From Mumia sp. Pv4-285 (lineage in GTDB: Bacteria; Actinomycetota; Actinomycetes; Propionibacteriales; Nocardioidaceae): 64,000 bases of DNA. The notes beneath the pieces are model-generated. The model saw only the letters and a list, made by a program, of their open reading frames with translations. It was not told where the DNA came from and searched no databases. Position numbers and translations under genes: made by a program. Location: the NCBI RefSeq assembly GCF_041320275.1, contig NZ_CP162023.1:4154001-4218000 (forward strand), in the 5' to 3' direction. Shown piece after piece: positions 5,427-56,425 of this stretch (position 1 is its first letter; each line of letters opens with the position of its first letter).

Positions 5427-6364
5427 CAGTGGCCCGCGCCGTCGGCATCGCGATCGGCTATGCGCTCGACCGGGTGCTCGGCGACCCAGCGCGCCGGCAC
5501 CCGGTCGCGGGCCTCGGTCGCGTGGCCGGTGCGCTCGAGCGTCGCCTGTACGCCGACCGCCGCGGGTCCGGTCTCGCGTTCACGGCGCTGCTCGTCGGAG
5601 GTACGGCCGCGGCCGGCGTCGCCGTCGAGAGTGCGGGCCGTCAGCGACCTGTCGTGCGCGCGGCGCTCACTGCGGCAGCGACCTGGGTGGTCCTCGGCGG
5701 GCGCTCGCTCGAGCGCGAGGCGCTCGCCGTCGTCACGCACCTCGACCGCGACGACCTGCCGGCAGCGCGCCAGCGCTTGACGCACCTGGTCGGCCGCGAC
5801 ACCGCACGGCTCGACGCGTCGGAGGTGAGCCGAGCCGTCGTCGAGTCCGTGGCCGAGAACACCAGCGACGCCGTGGTCGCGCCGTTGGTGTGGGGCGCGT
5901 TCGCCGGGGCCCCGGGACTACTCGCGTACCGCGCTGCCAACACGCTCGACGCGATGGTGGGGCACCGCAGCCCGCGGTACGAACGGTTCGGGTGGGCATC
6001 GGCCCGGCTGGACGACGTTCTCAACGTCCCCGGGTCTCGCCTGTCGGCAGCCCTCGCCGCGGCGCTCGCCCCGACCGTCGGCGGCCGTCCGGCCGACGCC
6101 CTCCGCGCGTGGCGCCGTGACGCCGGCGGACACCCGAGCCCGAACGCGGGACCGGTCGAGGCGGCGTTCGCGGGTGCGCTCGGGATCAGGCTCGGCGGGG
6201 TGAACCGGTACGGCGACCGTGTCGAGGACAGGCACGTGCTCGGGGACGGACGCGCGGCCGAGCCCAGCGACGTGGTGCGAGCGGCGCGCCTGGCCCGGAG
6301 GGTGGACCTCGCCGCGTGCGCGATCGCGTGCGCGGTCGCATTTCGCCGGGCCCGGCGTCGGTGA
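5423..6364 (+). CDS. cobD: Adenosylcobinamide-phosphate synthase (CobD/CbiB)
   Basis: Attaches the aminopropanol(-phosphate) arm to adenosylcobyric acid in the membrane. The 313-residue product carries family signatures: GYALDRVLGDPARRHPV at the N-terminus, VESVAENTSDAVVAPLVWGAFAG in the middle, ANTLDAMVGHRSPRYERFGWASARLDDVLN and RDAGGHPSPNAG. GTG 5423 overlaps the cbtA stop by 4 nt, so translation is probably coupled. The nucleotide-loop substrate supplier (CobC-like domain) is encoded just upstream in the cobB-cobC fusion. Confidence 0.94.
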   Translation: MTVARAVGIAIGYALDRVLGDPARRHPVAGLGRVAGALERRLYADRRGSGLAFTALLVGGTAAAGVAVESAGRQRPVVRAALTAAATWVVLGGRSLEREALAVVTHLDRDDLPAARQRLTHLVGRDTARLDASEVSRAVVESVAENTSDAVVAPLVWGAFAGAPGLLAYRAANTLDAMVGHRSPRYERFGWASARLDDVLNVPGSRLSAALAAALAPTVGGRPADALRAWRRDAGGHPSPNAGPVEAAFAGALGIRLGGVNRYGDRVEDRHVLGDGRAAEPSDVVRAARLARRVDLAACAIACAVAFRRARRR

Positions 6365-6428
6365 GCGCTCTCTGCCGGTGGTGAGCCCGGGCTACAACAC
6401 TCGCTCACCACCGGCGGAGCGGGCTCAC
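6361..6428. repeat. 68-nt hairpin element (family D, copy 1) spanning the cobD and cobK stop codons
   Basis: Layout is 26-nt arm, 16-nt loop, 26-nt arm. The inner 13 nt of each arm pair perfectly (GCCGGTGGTGAGC with GCTCACCACCGGC) and the outer GTGAGC/GCTCAC also pair. The loop reads CCGGGCTACAACACTC. The element covers both stop codons of two convergent genes, so it can serve as a bidirectional terminator, but a related 68-nt element lies at 36822-36889, which makes it a repeat family as well. Confidence 0.85.
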
Positions 6429-7168
6429 CGCACGAGTGCGCGGACCCAGGCAGCGGCAGCGGCAGGATCGCCGACGGTCTCGACGGCAGCGAGCGCCGTC
6501 AGGCGCCGTACGACGACGACCGGGATCCCCAGCTCGTCGGCGGCAGCCATCTTGGGCCACGTGTAGCGTCCGCCGGAGTCTTTCGTGACCAGCACGTCGA
6601 TACCGTGGTCGCGCATGCGGGCGCGCTCGCCGTCGAGGGCGTACGGCCCCCGGTCGAGGAGGACCTCCCAGCCCTCGGGGACCGCGATCTCGGGCGGGTC
6701 GACGACGCGGACGAGCGCCGCACGGTCGCGCAGCGGCTCGACGAACCGGTCGAGCGGCTGGCGGCCGACGGTGAGGAACGGCCGTTCGCCGCGAGCAGCG
6801 GCCTCCCGCGCCGCGACGTCGTGGCCGTCGACCCAGGTCCAGCGGTCGGCACCGGGGGCCGCGGCCCAACCGGGACGCTCGAGACGGAGCAGCGGTACGC
6901 CGTCGGCCGCGCACGCCGCGACCGCGTTCACCGAGATGCCCTCCGCGAACGGGTGGGTGGCGTCGACCACCGCGGCGATCCCGTGGTCCTCGACGTACGA
7001 CCTCAGCCCGTCCACTCCCCCGAACCCACCGACCCGGACCTCGCCGACCGGCAGCCGCGGACGCGCGACACGGCCGGCCAGCGACGAGACGACCGCGACA
7101 CCGCCCGCGTGGAGAAGCGTGGCGAGCTCACGCGCCTCCGCCGTACCGCCGAGCACCAGGACGCTCAC
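6425..7168 (-). CDS. cobK: Precorrin-6A reductase
   Basis: NADPH-dependent reduction of precorrin-6A. The 247-residue protein opens with [13 protein letters not shown] (Rossmann-like glycine motif), has [12 protein letters not shown] around residue 70 and [13 protein letters not shown] toward the C-terminus, all CobK/CbiJ hallmarks. The GTG start overlaps the cobQ stop by 4 nt (GTGA), so it is the distal gene of a cobQ-cobK pair. Confidence 0.95.
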
Positions 7169-10095: not shown

Positions 10096-10201
10096 GGTCT
10101 CGATCGCTTCGCGCCTCGACCAACCGCACCCCCGCTGGTCGAGGAGGGCGAGGAACGAGCCCGTCTCGAGACCAGGTCTCGATCGCTTCGCGCCTCGACC
10201 A
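10096..10201. repeat. Cluster of dispersed GGTCTCGATCGC.../CTGGTCGAG repeats
   Basis: Two direct copies of a 27-nt unit starting GGTCTCGATCGCTTCGCGCC and ending TCGACCA (10096-10122 and 10175-10201) flank a variant in opposite orientation (10135-10173) that starts CTGGTCGAGGAGG and ends CTCGAGACC. Fragments of the same unit continue to about 10250. It lies between doxX and the convergent tetR gene, where it may help end transcription. Related copies occur at 36764, 37776-37928 and 43794. Confidence 0.85.
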
Positions 10202-10256
10202 ACGGGGGGAAGGGCGCCTCGACCAGCGGAGAAGAAGGGCTCGACCAGTGAAGCGG

Positions 10257-22824: not shown

Positions 22825-23630
22825 ACGCCGAACGTGGCCGCCCGACCGAACGACGCCTTGCGCGCTGCCCGCCGCAGCGTGAGGAGCACCGCCGGCCCGA
22901 GCACGATGATCGCGACGGCGTTGGTGATCGCGCGCCCGGTGTCCCACCCGAGCGAGGTCAGGAGGATGAACCAGAAGAACCGTTGCAGGTTCTCTGCCAG
23001 CGACGCGCCCGGCACGAACGCGAGACCCTGGTCGCCGCTCGGGTCGATGCCCGCGAGGAACGGCCAGAACCAGAGGTTGAGCAGAGCACCGTAGAAGTAG
23101 GCCGCGAAGACCCCGTACGCCGCGAGCATCGCGATCTCCTTCTTCCCGGTGACCCGCTTCGGGAGCAGACCAGCGCCCAGTCCGAGCCACGCAGCGCACA
23201 TCATCTGGAACGGGAGCCACGGCCCGACGCCGGCGGTCAGGAGTGCCGACGCGAACAACGACGTGCACCCGAGCAGGAAGCCGAAGCCTGCACCGAAGAC
23301 CCGCCCACCCAGGATCAGCAGGAAGAAGACGAGGTCGAGCCCGGCCGTACCCGCACTGAGGGCACGCAGCCCGCACTGGATCGCCGACAGCACGCCGAGC
23401 ATCGCGAGCGCCTTCGCATCCATCCCGCCCTCCGACAGCTCGGCGAGGACGACGAGGAGCAGGAGCGGGAGGAGCAGGACGAAGTAGATCGGTGCCTGCG
23501 CGTCCTGCTGTCCGGACGCCGGCTCGAACAGCAGGGGCCACCCGAACATCGCCAGTCCGGCGACGGACGCGACCACCAGCACCGCCGCCGAGCGTGGCCG
23601 CAGCGCGATCGCCGTACGAGGGGTGCTCAC
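22821..23630 (-). CDS. ECF transporter S component (predicted cobalamin/corrinoid type)
   Basis: 269 residues with 6-8 hydrophobic segments, including RAAIxCGLRALSAGTAGLDLVFFLLILGGRVFGAGFGFLLG-like helices typical of ECF S components, and no ATPase or catalytic motif. As last gene of the operon it overlaps the ATPase by GTGA. The upstream cobalamin riboswitch and a transcobalamin-like gene point to B12 or another corrinoid as cargo; cobalt is less likely because S components for cobalt (CbiM) look different. Confidence 0.82.
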   Translation of the reverse strand: MSTPRTAIALRPRSAAVLVVASVAGLAMFGWPLLFEPASGQQDAQAPIYFVLLLPLLLLVVLAELSEGGMDAKALAMLGVLSAIQCGLRALSAGTAGLDLVFFLLILGGRVFGAGFGFLLGCTSLFASALLTAGVGPWLPFQMMCAAWLGLGAGLLPKRVTGKKEIAMLAAYGVFAAYFYGALLNLWFWPFLAGIDPSGDQGLAFVPGASLAENLQRFFWFILLTSLGWDTGRAITNAVAIIVLGPAVLLTLRRAARKASFGRAATFGV

Positions 23631-25291
23631 GCCTCCCCCTCCTCGGCGCGCTCCAGCGCGAGGCGTACGTCGCGGACCGTGAGCCACTCCGGGCCGAGCA
23701 CCTTGGCGACCTGCGGGGCGAAGGCGGGTGAGGCGGCCAGGACGTGGTGCACGTCGCCGGCGGCGATGACCTCGCCCTGCGCCATCACGACGGCGCAGTC
23801 GGCGACCTCCGCCACGAACTCGACGTCGTGGGTCGCGACGAGGACGGCGCTCCCGTGGCGGGCGAGGTCGTGCAGCATCGCGGCGAGCTCGGACTTGGCG
23901 GTGTAGTCGAGACCGCGCGTCGGTTCGTCGAGCAGGACGACCTTCGGCGCGGCGGTCAGCTGGACCGCGAGGACGAGGGCGAGCTTCTGCCCCTCGGACA
24001 GGTCTCGCGGGTTCATGACCGGATCGATGGTGCCGGCGAGACGGGCGAGGAGCGCGCGGCACGTGCCGGGCTCGGCGCCGGCCTCCGCGTCGGCGGCGGC
24101 GCACTCGACCGCGACGGTCTCGAGGTAGAGCAGGTCGCTGGCGGTCTGGGGTACGAGCCCGATCCTCGCGCGGGCCTCCTTGCGGGAAAGGTCTCCCGGA
24201 TCGTCACCGCCGACCCGGACGTCGCCGCCGTGCCGCGGACCGGATCCCTGCAGGGCCCACATCAGCGTCGACTTGCCGGAACCGTTCCGCCCCATCAACG
24301 CCGTGACGGTGCCGGCGCGGAGATCGAGGTCGACCCCACGCACGGCGTACAGGGGGCCGTACCGCACCTCGACGTCGCGCGCGGTCAGCAGCACGTCCTG
24401 CCCCGTCCCCGATTTGGGACCTTCGACAAGGTTCTGTGACCCGGATTCCTTCTCCAAGGTCCCAAATCGCGGACGGGACGGCTCCAGGGACTTGCGCAAG
24501 GTCTTCGACGCGCGGCGGGCCTCGCGGACGGTCAGCGGCAGCGGCTCCCACCCGGCGAGCCGGCCGAGGCTCACGATCGGCGGGGCGACCGGGCTCGTCG
24601 CCAGCATGCTCGCCGGCCCTCCGGCAGCGACGGTGCCGTCCGTCCCGACGTAGACGAGCACGTCCGCGAACGGCACCACGCGCTCCAGCCGGTGCTCCGC
24701 GAGGACGACCGTGGTCCCGAGGTCGTGGACGAGCCGCGCCAGCGTCGCGAGCACGTCCTCCGCCGACGTCGGGTCGAGCGCGGACGTCGGCTCGTCGAGC
24801 ACGAGGACCGGCGGGTTCATCGTGAGCACCGAGCCGATCGCGACCCGCTGCTGCTGCCCGCCCGACAGCGAGCGCAACGACCGCGCCCGCAGGTCGGCGA
24901 TGCCGAGCAGGTCGAGCGTCTCCTCGACCCGTCGCCGCATCGCCTGCGGGTCGACGCCCAGCTGCTCCATCCCGTACGCGAGCTCCTCCTCGACCGTGTC
25001 CGTCACGAACCCGGCGAGCGGGTCCTGGCCCACCCAGCCGACCGTGGCCGCCAGCTCGCGCGGCGGGTGGTCCTGCGTCCGCAGCCCGGCGACCGTCACC
25101 GTGCCGTCGAGGTGGCCGCCGGTGAAGTGCGGGACGAGGCCGTTCACGAGGCCGAGCAGGCTCGACTTGCCGGCGCCGGTCGGGCCGGTGACGACGACGA
25201 GCTCACCCTCCTCGACGTGCAGGTCGACGTCGCGCAGCACCGGCTCCGCCACCCCGTCGTAGGTGAACGTCACGCCCTCGATCGCGATCAC
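23627..25291 (-). CDS. Energy-coupling factor ABC ATPase, two fused domains
   Basis: 554 residues with two nucleotide-binding domains. Domain 1: Walker A GPTGAGKSS, signature LSGGQQQRVAIG, Walker B VLVLDEPTSALD. Domain 2: GRNGSGKST, a deviant signature LSEGQKLALV, VVLLDEPTRGLD. Together they make the EcfA-A' pair in one chain. The linker between them (about residues 272-297) is encoded by an inserted hairpin repeat. GTG 25291 overlaps the EcfT stop by 4 nt. Confidence 0.93.
   Translation of the reverse strand: MIAIEGVTFTYDGVAEPVLRDVDLHVEEGELVVVTGPTGAGKSSLLGLVNGLVPHFTGGHLDGTVTVAGLRTQDHPPRELAATVGWVGQDPLAGFVTDTVEEELAYGMEQLGVDPQAMRRRVEETLDLLGIADLRARSLRSLSGGQQQRVAIGSVLTMNPPVLVLDEPTSALDPTSAEDVLATLARLVHDLGTTVVLAEHRLERVVPFADVLVYVGTDGTVAAGGPASMLATSPVAPPIVSLGRLAGWEPLPLTVREARRASKTLRKSLEPSRPRFGTLEKESGSQNLVEGPKSGTGQDVLLTARDVEVRYGPLYAVRGVDLDLRAGTVTALMGRNGSGKSTLMWALQGSGPRHGGDVRVGGDDPGDLSRKEARARIGLVPQTASDLLYLETVAVECAAADAEAGAEPGTCRALLARLAGTIDPVMNPRDLSEGQKLALVLAVQLTAAPKVVLLDEPTRGLDYTAKSELAAMLHDLARHGSAVLVATHDVEFVAEVADCAVVMAQGEVIAAGDVHHVLAASPAFAPQVAKVLGPEWLTVRDVRLALERAEEGEA
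24402..24477. repeat. Hairpin element (family E, copy 1) inside the ECF ATPase gene
   Basis: Arms of 22 nt start CCCGTCCCCGATTT (24402) and end AAATCGCGGACGGG (24477), with one mismatch and a 32-nt interior that has a further AAGG/CCTT pairing. Between the GTCCCCGATTT and AAATCGCGGAC ends it is 70 nt long, exactly the geometry of the copy at 54423-54492. It is translated in frame as part of the interdomain linker. Confidence 0.85.
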
Positions 25292-36694: not shown

Positions 36695-36742
36695 CCGCCC
36701 GAAATCACGCGTTCACTTGCCGTACGCCAGGATTTCGGGCGG
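36695..36742. repeat. 48-nt hairpin with 12-bp perfect arms
   Basis: CCGCCCGAAATC (36695-36706) pairs perfectly with GATTTCGGGCGG (36731-36742); inside the 24-nt interior a GCGT/ACGC pairing extends the fold. It lies in the 319-nt gap between cobU and the sirtuin gene; apart from the three repeat elements listed, nothing else was seen in that gap. Confidence 0.7.
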
Positions 36743-36763
36743 TCGAGGCACCCCACCCTCCAC

Positions 36764-36790
36764 TGGTAGAGGCGCGTAGCGATCGAGACC
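36764..36790. repeat. Dispersed GGTCTCGATCGC-type repeat, reverse orientation
   Basis: A 27-nt copy (TGGTAGAGGCGCGTAGCGAT followed by CGAGACC) of the unit seen at 10096, in the opposite orientation and with TAG for TCG and TAG for AAG changes. Confidence 0.8.
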
Positions 36791-36821
36791 CGGACGGGCC
36801 TGCGCAGCGCCAGCTGACTCG

Positions 36822-36889
36822 GTGAGCCCCAACGGCCAGTGGTGAGCCCGCGCCACAACAGGCGCTCACCACTGGCCGTTGGGGCTCAC
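36822..36889. repeat. 68-nt hairpin element (family D, copy 2)
   Basis: Perfect 26-nt arms (start GTGAGCCCCAACGGCC, end GGCCGTTGGGGCTCAC) around a 16-nt loop CCGCGCCACAACAGGC. It shares with 6361-6428 the outer GTGAGC/GCTCAC, the inner GTGGTGAGC/GCTCACCAC and 12 of 16 loop bases, while the middle of the arms differs. Downstream of the sirtuin gene, it could also terminate transcription. Confidence 0.88.
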
Positions 36890-36906
36890 GGCGGCGCAGG
36901 CGCCGC

Positions 36907-37725: not shown

Positions 37726-37775
37726 TCGTCAAGATTACGTTCCGGCCCCACCCTCGCTGCTCGAGGCGCGACCCC

Positions 37776-37928
37776 GGTCTCGATCCTCCGCTAGCGCTCC
37801 GGCCTCGACCAACGGAAGTCTCGCCGGTCGAGGCGCGAAGCGATCGAGACCCGGTCTCGATCCTCCGCTAGCGCTCCGGCCTCGACCAGCGAGGGTTTCG
37901 CTGGTCGAGGCGCGAAGCGATCGAGACC
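37776..37928. repeat. Two tandem 76-nt inverted-repeat units (GGTCTCGAT... / ...ATCGAGACC)
   Basis: Units 37776-37851 and 37853-37928 are near-identical. Each starts with GGTCTCGATCCTCCGCTAGC, reaches TCGACCA, and ends with GGTCGAGGCGCGAAGCGATC followed by GAGACC, so the two ends of a unit can pair. Only about 14 nt in the middle differ. The rest of the 310-nt gap before the transglycosylase gene (37929-38035) shows nothing recognisable. Confidence 0.88.
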
Positions 37929-51745: not shown

Positions 51746-54328
51746 TCAGCGCAGTGCGAGCCCGTCCGACGAGGGGTCGCGATCGACGACGACCTCGTCC
51801 CCGTCGCGCACCTCGCCGGCGAGCAGCGCACGGGCGAGCGGGTCGCCGATCGCCTGCTGGATCAGCCGCCGCAGGGGACGAGCGCCGTACGTCGGGTCGA
51901 ACCCGGTGGCGGCCAGCCACGTCTTGGCGTCGTCGGTCACGCTCAGGCGGATCCGGCGCGACTCCAACCGCCGCGACAACGCCTCGATCTGCAGGTCGAC
52001 GATCCGGGTGAGGTCGTCGATCGACAGCGCGTCGAACATCACGACCTCGTCGAGCCGGTTGAGGAACTCGGGCCGGAACGCCGTGCGTACGACCTCCATC
52101 ACCTTCTCCCGCTTCACCGCGTCCTCGAGCGCCGGGTCGGCCAGGTAGACGGAGCCCAGGTTCGAGGTGAGGATCAGGATGACGTTGCGGAAGTCGACCG
52201 TACGACCCTGCCCGTCCGTGAGGCGCCCGTCGTCCAGCACCTGGAGCAGGATGTCGAACACCTCGGGGTGCGCCTTCTCGACCTCGTCGAGCAGCACGAC
52301 CGAGTACGGGCGACGGCGCACCGCCTCGGTGAGCTGGCCGCCCTCGTCGTAGCCGACGTAGCCCGGAGGAGCTCCGACCAGGCGCGAGACCGAGTGCTTC
52401 TCGGAGTACTCGCTCATGTCGATGCGGACCATGGCCCGCTCGTCGTCGAACAGGAACTCGGCCAGCGCCTTCGCGAGCTCGGTCTTGCCGACGCCGGTCG
52501 GCCCGAGGAAGAGGAACGAGCCGGTGGGACGGTTGGGGTCGGCGATGCCGGCACGGGACCGGCGTACGGCGTCCGAGACCGCCTCCACAGCGGTGGTCTG
52601 ACCGATCAGGCGCTGCCCGAGTTCGGACTCCATCCGCAGCAGCTTGCCGGTCTCGCCCTCGAGCAGACGGCCGGTCGGGATGCCGGTCCAGGCCGCGATC
52701 ACCTCGGCGATCTCGTCCGGGCCGACCTCCTCGTTGACCATGCGCTCGACCGGCTCGGCGGCCTCGTCGGCCTCCGCCTTCTCGAGCTGCTTCTCCAGGC
52801 TCGGGATCTCGCCGTAGTTCAGACGCGCGGCAGTCTCGAGGTCACCGGCGTTCTGGGCGCGCTCCGCCTCACGCCGCAGCTCGTCGATCTTCTGCTTGAT
52901 CTCGCCGACCTGGTTCAGCCCCGAGCGCTCACGCTCCCAGCGCGCCTCGAGACCGCGCAGCTGCTCCTCGGCGTCCGCGAGCTCGGCGCGCAGCTTGTCG
53001 AGCCGCTCCACGCTCGCCTCGTCGGTCTCCTTGGCAAGGTGGAGCTCCTCCATCTTCATGCGGTCGACCGAGCGCCGGAGCGTGTCGATCTCGACCGGGT
53101 TGGAGTCGATCTCCATGCGCAGCCGGCTGCTCGCCTCGTCGACGAGGTCGATCGCCTTGTCGGGGAGCTGGCGGCCGCTGATGTAGCGGTCGGACAGCGT
53201 CGCGGCCGCCACCAGCGCAGCGTCGGAGATCTCGACCTTGTGGTGCGCCTCGTACGTCTCCTTGAGACCGCGCAGGATCGCGATGGTGTCCTCGACGCTC
53301 GGCTCGTCGACCAGCACCTGCTGGAAGCGGCGCTCGAGCGCGGGGTCCTTCTCGATGTTCTCGCGGTACTCGTCGAGCGTCGTCGCGCCCACCATCCGCA
53401 GCTCTCCGCGCGCCAGCATCGGCTTGAGCATGTTGCCGGCGTCCATCGCGGAGTCACCGGTCGCACCGGCGCCCACGACGGTGTGGAGCTCGTCGATGAA
53501 CGTGATGATCTGACCGTCGGAGTCCTTGATCTCCTGGAGCACGGCCTTGAGCCGCTCCTCGAACTCGCCGCGGTACTTCGCGCCCGCCACCATCGCGCCC
53601 AGGTCGAGCGAGATCAGTCGGCGGCCCTGCAGGGAGCTCGGCACGTCGCCCGCGACGATGCGCTGCGCGAGGCCTTCGACGACGGCGGTCTTGCCGACGC
53701 CGGGCTCACCGATGAGGACCGGGTTGTTCTTCGTACGGCGGGTCAGCACCTGGATCGTGCGGCGGATCTCCGCATCGCGGCCGATCACGGGGTCGAGCTT
53801 GCCCTCACGGGCGGTGGCCGTGAGGTCGACGCCGTACTTCTCCAACGCCTGGTACGTGTCCTCGGCGTCCTGGCTCGTCACGCGGGCGGAGCCTCGTACG
53901 GTCTGGAACGCTCCGGTCAGCGCCTCGGCGGTGGCGCCGAGACCGTCGAGGACCTCACGGGCCTTCGACTGCACGGTGGCCAGCCCGACCATGAGGTGCT
54001 CGGTGGAGACGTACTCGTCGCCGAGCTCACCGGCCAGGTCCTGCGCCCGCTGGAACACCTCGAGGGTCGCGCGGGCGTACGACGGCGTCGCGACGCTCTG
54101 ACCCGCGGCCGACGGGAGCGCGGAGAGCGCCTCGGCGGTGCGGGCGCGCGCGGTCGCCGGGTCGGCGCCTGCGGCCTGCAGGAGGGGGACGGCGGTGCCG
54201 CCGTCGGCGTCCAGCAGCGCGTGGAGCACGTGCACCGGGTCCACGGCGGGGTTGCCTGCGGCAGCGGCGCTCTGGATGGCGGCGCTGATCGCCTGCTGGC
54301 TACGGGTGGTGAGCTTGGAAGCGTCCAT
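51746..54328 (-). CDS. clpB: ATP-dependent disaggregase ClpB
   Basis: 860 residues: Clp N domain ([17 protein letters not shown]), NBD1 with [15 protein letters not shown], coiled-coil M domain (about 400-520), NBD2 with [16 protein letters not shown] and the arginine-finger region. ClpB with DnaK resolves protein aggregates. Two HAIR-like dyads lie upstream, indicating HspR control as in other actinobacteria. Confidence 0.97.
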
Positions 54329-54420: not shown

Positions 54421-54494
54421 CCGTCCCCGATTTGTGCAGTTGATCAAGGAGTTCGACCGGCGATTCCTTGATCAGCTGCACAAATCGGGGACGG
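54421..54494. repeat. Hairpin element (family E, copy 2)
   Basis: Arms of 30 nt starting CCGTCCCCGATTT and ending AAATCGGGGACGG, 29 of 30 complementary. Relative to the copy in the ECF ATPase gene the outer 11 nt and the 16-nt loop length are kept while the middle 16-nt arms are entirely different yet still complementary. It lies between clpB and the acyltransferase gene. Confidence 0.9.
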
Positions 54495-54499
54495 GACGG

Positions 54500-56314
54500 T
54501 CAGCAGCTGCCGAGGGACTCGCGCACGAGGCGCGTGTAGAGGCGGGCACCGCGCTCGTTCGGGTGCACCCGGTCGGCGGCGAGGAGCGCGTCGCGTCCGG
54601 CCACCGCGCCGTGCCAGTCCGCGAGCCGCACGGCGTCGTGGTCGCGCGCCACCCGGCGTACGGAGCTGAGCGCCCCCTTCTGCCACGACCTGCCCGGCAC
54701 GTACGGCGACACGAGCACGACCTCGTGACCCGCGAGCTGTCGTCGTACGAGCCGGTCGAGGTCGTCGCGGTCGACGAGCCCGTTGGTCCCGGTGCCGATC
54801 AGCACCACAGGACCGAGGACACCTCGCGCGGCCGCCTTGCGGACCGCCGCGGCCACGTCCTCGTACTGCCAGCCGACCCTGGCTGTCGCCCGCAGCCTCG
54901 CCATCGTGCCCAGGAGCTCCGGCGCCGCAGCGACGAGGACCGAGTCGCCGAACGCGCTGACCCGGACCGACGTGCCGACCGTACGGCAGGTGGCCGGCAC
55001 CTGCGCCCCGCCTGCCGCCGCCTCGGGATCAGGCGCCACAGGCTCCCCCGCTCCGCCGGCGAGGAGCCGCTGACCGTGCAGCAGGCTCGCCTGCAGCCGG
55101 CTCTCGTCGGGCGCGGTGCCGACCGCGGTGACCGCACCCACGAGGACCGCGGCGGACACCGCCACGGCGAGCACCCAGCGGTACGCCGGACGCCGCCGGT
55201 GCGCGACCAGCCGCTCGATCGGCGACACCCACCGGCGCAGCGTCAGACCGATCCCGTCCATCCGCATCGGCATCTCGACGAACCGGTACGACGCAGCGGC
55301 GACGGCGACGGACGCGCCGACGGCCAGCACGCCCGCCTCCACGGCCCGGTCCGGCGGGGCGATGCGCGTCGCGAGGACGATGAGCGGCCAGTGCCACAGG
55401 TAGATCCCGTACGAGCGCGCTCCGACCCAGCGAAGCGGCGCCAGGGAGAGCGCGGCGGCGAACGCGGTCCGGTTGGCTGCGGCGACGACCACGGCACCCG
55501 ACGCGAGGCTGGCGACGAGGAGCCCGCCGCGGTACGTCACGGGACCCGACCACGAGACCAGGACGGCGTACGCGACGACCACCCCGAGGCCGGTCACGCC
55601 GAGCCCGGTCATGACGAGCCGGGTGCGACGCGCCGGCGGCGATCGGTCCGACCGCAGCAGGTGCGGCACCTTGGCCAGCGCGAGCGCCCCGCCGATCAGC
55701 AGCCCGAAGACGTGCGTGTCGGTCCCGACGTAGGCGCGCGTCGGGTCACCCGCGTCGTACGTGGCGCCCATCAGCGCAGCAGACACGAGGGCGAGCGCGA
55801 GCATCGCTCCGGCGAGCCGGCGCCGTGACATCACCAGCAGGCCGAGCGCGAGGAGCGCGGGCCAGACGACGTAGAACTGCTCCTCGATGCCGAGCGACCA
55901 CAGGTGGTTGAGGACGGGCGGCTCGCCCTGCTCGGCGTACGCCCACCCCTGCGCGACCTGGAACCAGTTCGACGTCCAGGTCAGACCGCCGAGGACCTGC
56001 CAGCGCAGGCCGGCGCCGGTGTCGCGTCCGACGACCAGCGTGAGCGCGGCGACGACCACGATCATCAGCGTCGCGGCGGGCACCAGCCGTCGCGCGCGGC
56101 GTACCCAGAACGACGGCAGGTCGAAGTGCTGGGCGCGCGCCGCGTCCTCCATCAGCACCGTGGTGATCAGGAAGCCACTGAGGACGAAGAAGACGTCGAC
56201 CCCGACGTAACCGCCGGGCAGCCAGGCCGGCGCGACGTGGAACAGCACCACGAGCAGCACGGCGACGGCACGCACGCCGTCGAGACCGGGCGCCGTGGGA
56301 CGGCGCAGTGACAT
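54500..56314 (-). CDS. Membrane acyltransferase-3 with C-terminal SGNH domain (OatA-like)
   Basis: 604 residues. An N-terminal acyltransferase-3 domain of about 10 helices (LDGVRAVAVLLVVLFHVAPAWLPGGYVGVDVFFVLSGFLITTVL with the catalytic His) is followed by an SGNH hydrolase fold: GDSVLVAA (Ser), GTGTNG and the final ADRVHPNERG with Asp-x-x-His. Typically O-acetylates peptidoglycan or other surface polymers. SD GGAGGAAG precedes the ATG. Its end abuts the family E hairpin. Confidence 0.9.
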   Translation of the reverse strand: MSLRRPTAPGLDGVRAVAVLLVVLFHVAPAWLPGGYVGVDVFFVLSGFLITTVLMEDAARAQHFDLPSFWVRRARRLVPAATLMIVVVAALTLVVGRDTGAGLRWQVLGGLTWTSNWFQVAQGWAYAEQGEPPVLNHLWSLGIEEQFYVVWPALLALGLLVMSRRRLAGAMLALALVSAALMGATYDAGDPTRAYVGTDTHVFGLLIGGALALAKVPHLLRSDRSPPARRTRLVMTGLGVTGLGVVVAYAVLVSWSGPVTYRGGLLVASLASGAVVVAAANRTAFAAALSLAPLRWVGARSYGIYLWHWPLIVLATRIAPPDRAVEAGVLAVGASVAVAAASYRFVEMPMRMDGIGLTLRRWVSPIERLVAHRRRPAYRWVLAVAVSAAVLVGAVTAVGTAPDESRLQASLLHGQRLLAGGAGEPVAPDPEAAAGGAQVPATCRTVGTSVRVSAFGDSVLVAAAPELLGTMARLRATARVGWQYEDVAAAVRKAAARGVLGPVVLIGTGTNGLVDRDDLDRLVRRQLAGHEVVLVSPYVPGRSWQKGALSSVRRVARDHDAVRLADWHGAVAGRDALLAADRVHPNERGARLYTRLVRESLGSC

Positions 56315-56425
56315 GCGGGACTTCCTCCGAGACTCACGAGCAGGGTCGGGCACCCGAGGTGACGCCTCTCGACCCCGATCGAGAGTACCGACCGCGCCCC
56401 AACCCCCGACCGGCTGCACGGAGCG

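Follow-up and report, generated by a model that had tools for sequence, protein, structure and literature searches.

A dispersed palindrome family of Mumia and its candidate partner, a palindrome-flanked AbiEi-Vsr/DUF559-like nuclease gene

Dispersed palindromes are common in bacteria. Rickettsia palindromic elements (RPE) insert in frame in protein genes, and the EDxHD homing endonucleases are kin to Vsr. In the available text of PMC3733652, REP elements are described as dispersed palindromes that lie mostly just downstream of genes, with some inside them, and the RAYT gene is flanked by the same palindromes. The same portion of that source presents RAYTs as the proposed dedicated enzymes of the GTAG REPs and states that the CGTC REPs, including two RPE families, "apparently lack a dedicated transposase" (PMC3733652). 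The accessible part of PMC3943268 describes the EDxHD family of homing endonucleases, and that of PMC7319586 reports that AbiEi and Rv2827c bind 23-bp inverted repeats upstream of their own genes.

We analyzed a stretch of 64,000 nucleotides (the window), which spans positions 4154001-4218000 of the Mumia genome G000, a single contig of 4,649,352 bases (4.65 Mb). Two palindromes in the window, termed family E, had been singled out by a first-pass annotation for their constant segment lengths, kept outer arms, and unrelated inner arms that still pair. The features concerned are as follows.

24404..24475, no strand assigned: palindrome copy 1 (site 1), 72 nt, in frame in an ABC-ATPase gene
24405-24415 and 24464-24474: outer arms of copy 1
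24416-24431 and 24448-24463: inner arms of copy 1
24432-24447: spacer of copy 1
23627..25291, minus strand: two-domain gene that we take to encode an ABC transporter ATPase; start codon inferred; contains copy 1
54422..54493, no strand assigned: palindrome copy 2 (site 2), 72 nt, its end 6 nt from the stop codon of the minus-strand ORF 54500..56419
54500..56419, minus strand: ORF, presumably acyltransferase-like, whose stop codon abuts copy 2
51746..54328, minus strand: ORF, presumably ClpB-like, on the opposite side of copy 2

The segment lengths of 11+16+16+16+11 nt are borne out at 24405-24474 and 54423-54492. By direct reading, the unrelated inner arms do pair, at 14 of 16 positions in site 1 and at 15 of 16, plus one G.T, in site 2. 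The outer arms are kept at site 2 (AAATCGGGGAC) and not at site 1, where the right arm reads AAATCGCGGAC and one outer pair is broken. The natural unit of the family is 72 nt, CGTCCCC...GGGGACG, corresponding to 24404-24475 and 54422-54493. An Rfam scan of the window at gathering score returned 0 matches.

The strict pattern GTCCCCGATTTN{20,50}AAATCGGGGAC occurs at eight places in G000, and its reversed control at none; site 1 is not among the eight because its outer pair is broken. The 12-mer CGTCCCCGATTT tags 18 palindromes in the same genome, from which covariance model R1 was built. Since an exact match to the 12-nt left outer arm was the selection criterion for these copies, the lack of variation in that arm is built in. 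Across the 18 copies, 42 cells carry changes on both sides, compared with 18.6 ± 2.9 after shuffling (0/500), and 87.1% of cells pair, compared with 33.8-47.4% for slid structures. The first-pass annotation had proposed a covariance-model search of the whole genome and its relatives. Using R1, this search returned at least 29 distinct places in G000 at E<=1 (150 of 997 candidates scored), the weakest at 29.6 bits and on one strand only, and the family is carried by all six Mumia genomes searched. These data confirm that the window hairpins belong to a dispersed palindrome family whose arms co-vary beyond shuffled controls.

Across Nocardioidaceae, matches at E<=0.001 were found in 26 of 197 sampled genomes, representing 5 of 26 genera. 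Each model search scored no more than 150 candidates per genome (25 in the family-wide survey), and loci were taken among the matches listed; copy numbers are therefore minimum values, and high-scoring elements are over-represented among the solos. One listed place, 2584161, was left out of the fetched loci. In total, 108 distinct elements were gathered, comprising 92 solos and 16 elements that flank eight units. Six elements from other genera were excluded from the unit-match matrix and from the location and arm counts, which leaves 86 Mumia solos. We also observed, after the fact, that 14 of the 29 family-E copies in G000 lie within ~471 kb of the start or end of the record (58-446 kb and 4178-4506 kb; ~20% of the genome).

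The first-pass annotation saw no transposase-like gene nearby, which holds for both window sites; elsewhere in the genome, however, a nuclease gene is flanked by the palindromes. Eight palindrome pairs, 1.04-1.08 kb apart, flank a homologous gene of ~305 codons (called longer in L178 and L181), with at least one pair in each of the six Mumia genomes. The unit in G000 (C1:1773196-1774331) encodes protein P0002. As a separate observation, two solos in G004 lie 2 kb apart with the nuclease gene absent between them (L177, 4217-6224).

Against Pfam, P0002 matches DUF559 above the cut-off and MTES_1575 below it. Residues 9-163 match the PADLOC AbiEi model (2e-18), while the vsr model is matched weakly, far below its cut-off. 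Among 55 aligned homologues (an alignment that does not include L259, L270, L282, L302, and L303), 40 match MTES_1575, 33 DUF559, 8 AbiEi_1, and 5 AbiEi_4 at E<=0.01, and residues S185, E188, R192, P203, D221, and G235 are invariant. A PDB search with the single P0002 sequence gave no match. A profile search of PDB gave weak matches, all of them over the C-terminal domain, to 3hrl (1.8e-5), to 3r3p, a "Mobile intron protein" (0.017) that we take to be the Vsr-like I-Bth0305I, and to Vsr (0.94-0.97; 1vsr, 0.97); profile matches to IcmE (0.0018 and 0.0019) and to an oxidoreductase (0.6) were regarded as spurious. Judged from sequence, the partner is likely a protein of ~305 residues whose N-terminal region is AbiEi-like and whose C-terminal domain is a Vsr/DUF559-like PD-(D/E)XK nuclease, and it is predicted to cut DNA. 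For the seven homologue pairs listed, differences per site amount to 0.35-0.44 at third and 0.10-0.16 at second codon positions, and third positions differ 1.8-4.6 times as often as first/second positions, a pattern as would be expected under purifying selection.

A search of G000 for the Y1 transposase (Y1_Tnp, PF01797) returned 0 matches; the same search was positive in 5 of 14 named control genomes. In a class-wide sample, the nuclease gene family was present at E<=1e-20 in 86 of 296 genomes and 41 of 115 genera. The plasmid search for the family returned three Arthrobacter records only, and peptide patterns of P0002 went unmatched among viral contigs.

The arrangement of a nuclease gene between palindromes extends beyond family E. 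G000 contains five homologues of the nuclease at E<=0.001; for each of the first three (100, 63, and 33% identical), the bracketing palindromes come from a separate family. We compared the 400 nt upstream of each gene with the region from -100 to +200 nt around its stop codon by local similarity, treating nucleases and controls identically. Flank similarity was at least 33 for 24 of 30 Mumia homologues and, with one locus taken from each of 29 further genomes in the class, for 24 of 29, compared with 1 of 48 control ORFs; the cut-off of 33 was fixed after the control values were known, and the next control value is 32. The single positive control ORF encloses two solo palindromes in L177. Controls were mechanically called ORFs of at least 250 aa from the window and L174-L178, with the L175 nuclease gene removed (49 to 48). 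The Mumia homologues occupy 31 places, one without a locus; L258 was added from a separate search and L282, where the gene call failed, was dropped, giving 30. A variant of the test with 300-nt flanks scored 19 of 30 at 34 or above and missed loci with the stop codon inside the palindrome. The main test failed for 6 of 30 Mumia loci (L259, L268, L270, L272, L273, and L274) and for 5 of 29 class-wide loci (L286, L301, L302, L305, and L309); some of these failures are gene-call or contig-edge errors. The upstream flank of L273 (G002) was seen to contain long C and G runs resembling an assembly artefact, and its palindrome call was discarded.

Locus-specific palindromes occur class-wide, such as GTTGATCTTGGAGTAAC, CAGAGAAGTGGGGCACCTGAG, and CCCGAGTGTGTAGTTG. 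Hairpins scoring at least 13 are found on both sides of 19/30 Mumia genes, 11/29 class-wide genes, and 1/48 controls, and on one or both sides of 23/30, 24/29, and 16/48, respectively. Since one-sided hairpins are common in controls, it is two-sidedness and the sequence match between sides, rather than hairpins as such, that distinguish the nuclease genes. Six flank-positive loci with weak hairpins (L287, L289, L290, L291, L298, and L307) are without two strong hairpins, and the more distant nuclease homologues L277, L280, L281, and L283, likewise flank-positive with weak hairpins, carry short repeat arrays (CGCGAGTCACC / CTCGCGGGTCAC types) with no single clean palindrome. At loci from other genera, the gene lies between E-like palindromes in 2 of 20 cases (L156 and L163). 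Dispersed copies were mapped for family E only.

Palindrome similarity tracks nuclease identity (Mantel Spearman 0.321, 0/2000 permutations, 21 loci). The set was reduced from 31 loci by removing L259, L282, and those with up-flank palindromes that scored <13 or consisted of C/G only. Median palindrome similarity is 0.24 for proteins at least 60% identical (different genomes) and 0.15 for those below 45%; the correlation between palindrome and nuclease is modest.

The palindromes of the other G000 nucleases have no clear copy in the window. The window does contain other repeats, recorded here as side observations. Positions 6358-6431 and 36819-36892 belong to another palindrome family (CGGTGAGC...GGTGAGC / GCTCACC...GCTCACCG) and are 78% alike; their outer end resembles the GCGGTGAGC palindromes that flank the G000 nuclease L256, and the L256-flanking palindrome, used as a query, found no copy in the window. 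A dispersed repeat (GGTCTCGATCGCTTCGCGCCTCGACCA) occupies 10096-10224, 36741-36793, and 37773-37928, and is tandem at 37773-37926. By eye, a repeat of this type also occupies the ABC linker in G001.

Copy 1 lies within a coding sequence. It contributes 24 residues, 'RPRFGTLEKESGSQNLVEGPKSGT', to the linker joining the ABC protein's two ATPase domains; these residues are absent from all 14 aligned homologues. Within Mumia, this linker contains the element in G000 and is missing it in G005, G002, and G004; in G003 there is a short remnant-like palindrome (GTCCCCGATCTGTGCA / CACAACGGGGACGGG), and in G001 a different palindrome of the TCGAGGC..GATCGAGA type. Further in-frame copies separate the hydrolase from the CMD domain of a PcaL-type protein (G000 L187; its orthologous counterpart is G003 L225) and NAD_binding_7 from TP_methylase in CysG-type proteins (G003 L216 and G002 L240). 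Another falls in a protein carrying HTH_25 and RodZ_C domains (G003 L212), and one follows the domain of an M28 peptidase (G005 L196). Ten of the 86 Mumia solos are called inside ORFs, of which about six in-frame copies are counted as convincing because the calls at L189, L213, and L232 (possibly wrong gene starts) and at L225 (called in the wrong frame) are doubtful.

Three loci were compared over the six genomes, and each is filled in some and empty in others. Three genomes (G005, G002, and G001) are empty at the site of the G000 unit; in G004 it is occupied by one solo palindrome, and in G003 by a unit with a different palindrome and a nuclease of 67% identity. Four of five relatives (G005, G003, G001, and G002) are empty at site 2. 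G004 has another palindrome there, with an inner arm (TTGCGGTCGG) that matches, by eye, the palindrome flanking the G004 nuclease L265. No target-site duplication is visible at the two sites with orthologous empty alleles.

Where copies are shared, the arms can be compared directly. Thirty orthologous solo pairs from 15 sites have flanks that are 85.8% identical and a mean inner-arm identity of 0.63, compared with 0.558 for other cross-genome pairs; as the compared flanks are largely coding, faster decay of non-coding arms may explain part of the arm difference. Within genomes, arm identity is 0.744 in G004, 0.726 in G002, 0.696 in G003, 0.692 in G005, 0.655 in G001, and 0.559 in G000. Orthologues are at or below cross pairs in four of ten genome pairs (G000-G002, G000-G003, G002-G005, and G003-G005) and above them in six, for instance G000-G004 (0.783 vs 0.622). 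Descent is therefore visible where arm types agree and erased where they differ. Shared junctions with different, genome-specific arm types include L186/L214/L237, L041/L242/L219/L195, and L187/L225, and inner arms at shared positions tend to be genome-specific as judged by these comparisons. For 41 of the 86 solos, the E-unit palindrome that they match best belongs to their own genome, compared with 13.4 ± 7.9 expected (0/2000). G000 is the exception: its own unit is the best match for 0 of 26 solos, 16 of which match the G004 unit best, and its copies resemble one another (0.559) no more closely than copies of different genomes do (0.558). The shared in-frame and shared-junction copies favor arm change in place, and site 2 favors re-use of a site.

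The first-pass annotation had offered two explanations: either the fold is under selection, or a copying process rewrites the arms. Rewriting gains support from the orthologous arms (0.63), whereas selection for an RNA fold does not: when 23 solos lying in tandem gaps are read along the sense strand, they show as many G.T as A.C mismatches (18 and 18), and an RNA-level role was set aside. When all 78 elements of 72 nt are taken together, G.T mismatches number 68 and A.C mismatches 43, in an orientation set by an RNA model that tolerates G.U.

We consider it fairly probable that the palindromes are non-autonomous REP-like mobile elements, spread and homogenized by a cognate AbiEi-Vsr/DUF559-like nuclease. 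From the observed association and presence/absence patterns, we infer that the nuclease acts on the palindromes as follows. Its N-terminal AbiEi-like region would read the palindrome arms; the enzyme would then nick or cut the palindrome, probably as an extruded hairpin or cruciform, or its target. Repair would copy the palindrome into new sites (gene 3' ends) or over older copies, and the arms of a genome's copies would come to resemble those belonging to whichever nuclease is currently active. The arms could change freely yet still pair because both would be copied together. A palindrome-reading N-terminus combined with cut-and-repair is proposed because AbiEi binds inverted repeats and nucleases of related fold occur among homing endonucleases. 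Several points weigh against this nuclease-driven reading: no target-site duplication was visible at two sites, none of the G000 solos matches its own unit best, and G000 copies differ among themselves as much as copies from separate genomes. Binding of promoter repeats in the manner of AbiEi could explain the upstream palindromes without mobility. The higher likeness of orthologues in six of ten genome pairs, the faster decay expected of non-coding arms, the modest correlation, the flank-test failures, the weak hairpins at positive loci, and the one-sided hairpins of controls count against it as well.

A bolder proposal, which we put forward only tentatively and with some doubt, holds that AbiEi-Vsr nucleases are arm-rewriting drives, a new class of mobile DNA in which the palindromes resident in a genome would be converted jointly, each remaining at its site. 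The nuclease would attack resident palindromes, and repair would install the arm pair of the active unit. New arm specificities would arise along with new nuclease specificities, and many unrelated-looking palindrome families would be generated across Actinomycetes.

The genomic location of the solos bears on what they might do for the host. With genes called by a simple GC-position rule, 36 of the 86 Mumia solos are in tandem gaps, 33 in convergent gaps, 3 in divergent gaps, and 10 in ORFs, the remaining 4 being unplaced; other gaps at the same loci are 45 tandem, 12 convergent, and 29 divergent. The distance from solo to stop codon has a median of 11 nt and is at most 15 nt in 49 of 69 cases, 7 of these overlapping the called gene end. 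The 3' flank of the palindromes is G-rich (GGRCGG), and a canonical intrinsic terminator was set aside since this flank has no T run. The proximity to stop codons and the convergent excess (33/86, with 3/86 divergent) could indicate that the solos are terminators or 3'-end elements kept for the host, while the palindromes at the nuclease gene are AbiEi-domain binding sites through which it autoregulates, much as AbiEi and Rv2827c bind repeats upstream of their genes in the accessible part of PMC7319586. We regard this explanation as unlikely. Palindromes also lie downstream of the nuclease gene and in frame in unrelated proteins, the G-rich 3' flank is without a T run, sites are empty in close relatives, and operators leave the genome-specific arms at many sites unexplained.

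The nuclease gene might instead merely sit between two copies of a palindrome that some transposase or a host process makes and spreads. Template switching in quasi-palindromes homogenizes arms and would be one such process, and movement of the palindromes by the nuclease is something we infer rather than observe. This alternative nevertheless seems quite improbable to us, as genes of this family sit between locus-specific repeats throughout the class, palindrome and nuclease co-diverge, Y1_Tnp is absent from G000 (the Y1 family alone was searched), and local arm correction would not yield one arm consensus per genome across sites. Very improbable is a defense or addiction role, with the nuclease an anti-phage or toxin-like enzyme and the palindromes self-marking or decoy sites: the N-terminal half does match PADLOC AbiEi models (2e-18) and the nuclease domain weakly matches the anti-phage Hhe and ProA, but such a role predicts neither the stop-codon location nor a site that is empty in some genomes and carries a solo or a unit in others.

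If true, spread of the palindromes by the nuclease would give a role to an uncharacterized family (Pfam DUF559, "protein of unknown function"), add an unrelated enzyme type to palindrome mobility, and explain hairpin arms that change freely while pairing. Enzymes of the AbiEi-Vsr type might also be candidates for the missing partners of CGTC-type REPs. Concerted evolution, insertion beside stop codons, and the gain of in-frame linkers from palindromes, as in the ABC ATPase, could all be tested in this system. Within the text available from the open-licence PMC literature searched, no description was found of a DUF559 or AbiEi-nuclease gene with flanking palindromes.

Several described systems share features with family E. 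Like MITEs, these are short inverted-repeat elements dispersed without a gene of their own; unlike MITEs, they are full palindromes rather than spaced terminal repeats, no target-site duplication was seen at two sites, and the Y1 search of G000 found no matching transposase. The partner shares its DUF559/PD-(D/E)XK domain, predicted to be Vsr-like, with Caulobacter VsrA, a DUF559 protein that the accessible part of PMC12907096 describes as a repair-type endonuclease linked to a cytosine methyltransferase, with palindromes unmentioned in that part. With AbiEi antitoxins it has in common the AbiEi-like N-terminal region, in a group where AbiEi binds inverted repeats, but here that region is fused to a nuclease domain and palindromes stand on both sides of the gene. 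The EDxHD homing endonucleases (I-Bth0305I; 3r3p, weak profile match at 0.017) likewise tie a nuclease, of a fold that may be related, to mobile DNA, whereas family E involves many dispersed palindromes and no intron, intein, or single homing site. As with RPE, palindromes lie in frame in protein genes (the ABC, PcaL-type, and CysG-type linkers); family E differs in belonging to another phylum, in having a candidate enzyme, and in being mostly intergenic, and it is not filed as RPE because most copies are intergenic.

Family E also resembles REP/RAYT. In both, the partner gene is flanked by the same palindromes as the dispersed copies (eight E-type units), and solos are found preferentially downstream of coding regions. 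The family-E partner, however, is PD-(D/E)XK-like with an AbiEi-like N-terminus and not a Y1 tyrosine transposase, of which G000 has none. Furthermore, REPs measure 20-40 bp and carry an unpaired GTAG/CGTC tag, whereas family E is 72 nt long and its CGTC end (columns 1-4) pairs with GACG (columns 69-72). Family E would thus work like REP/RAYT yet departs from REP in two criteria, the type of enzyme, and the size and tag of the element.
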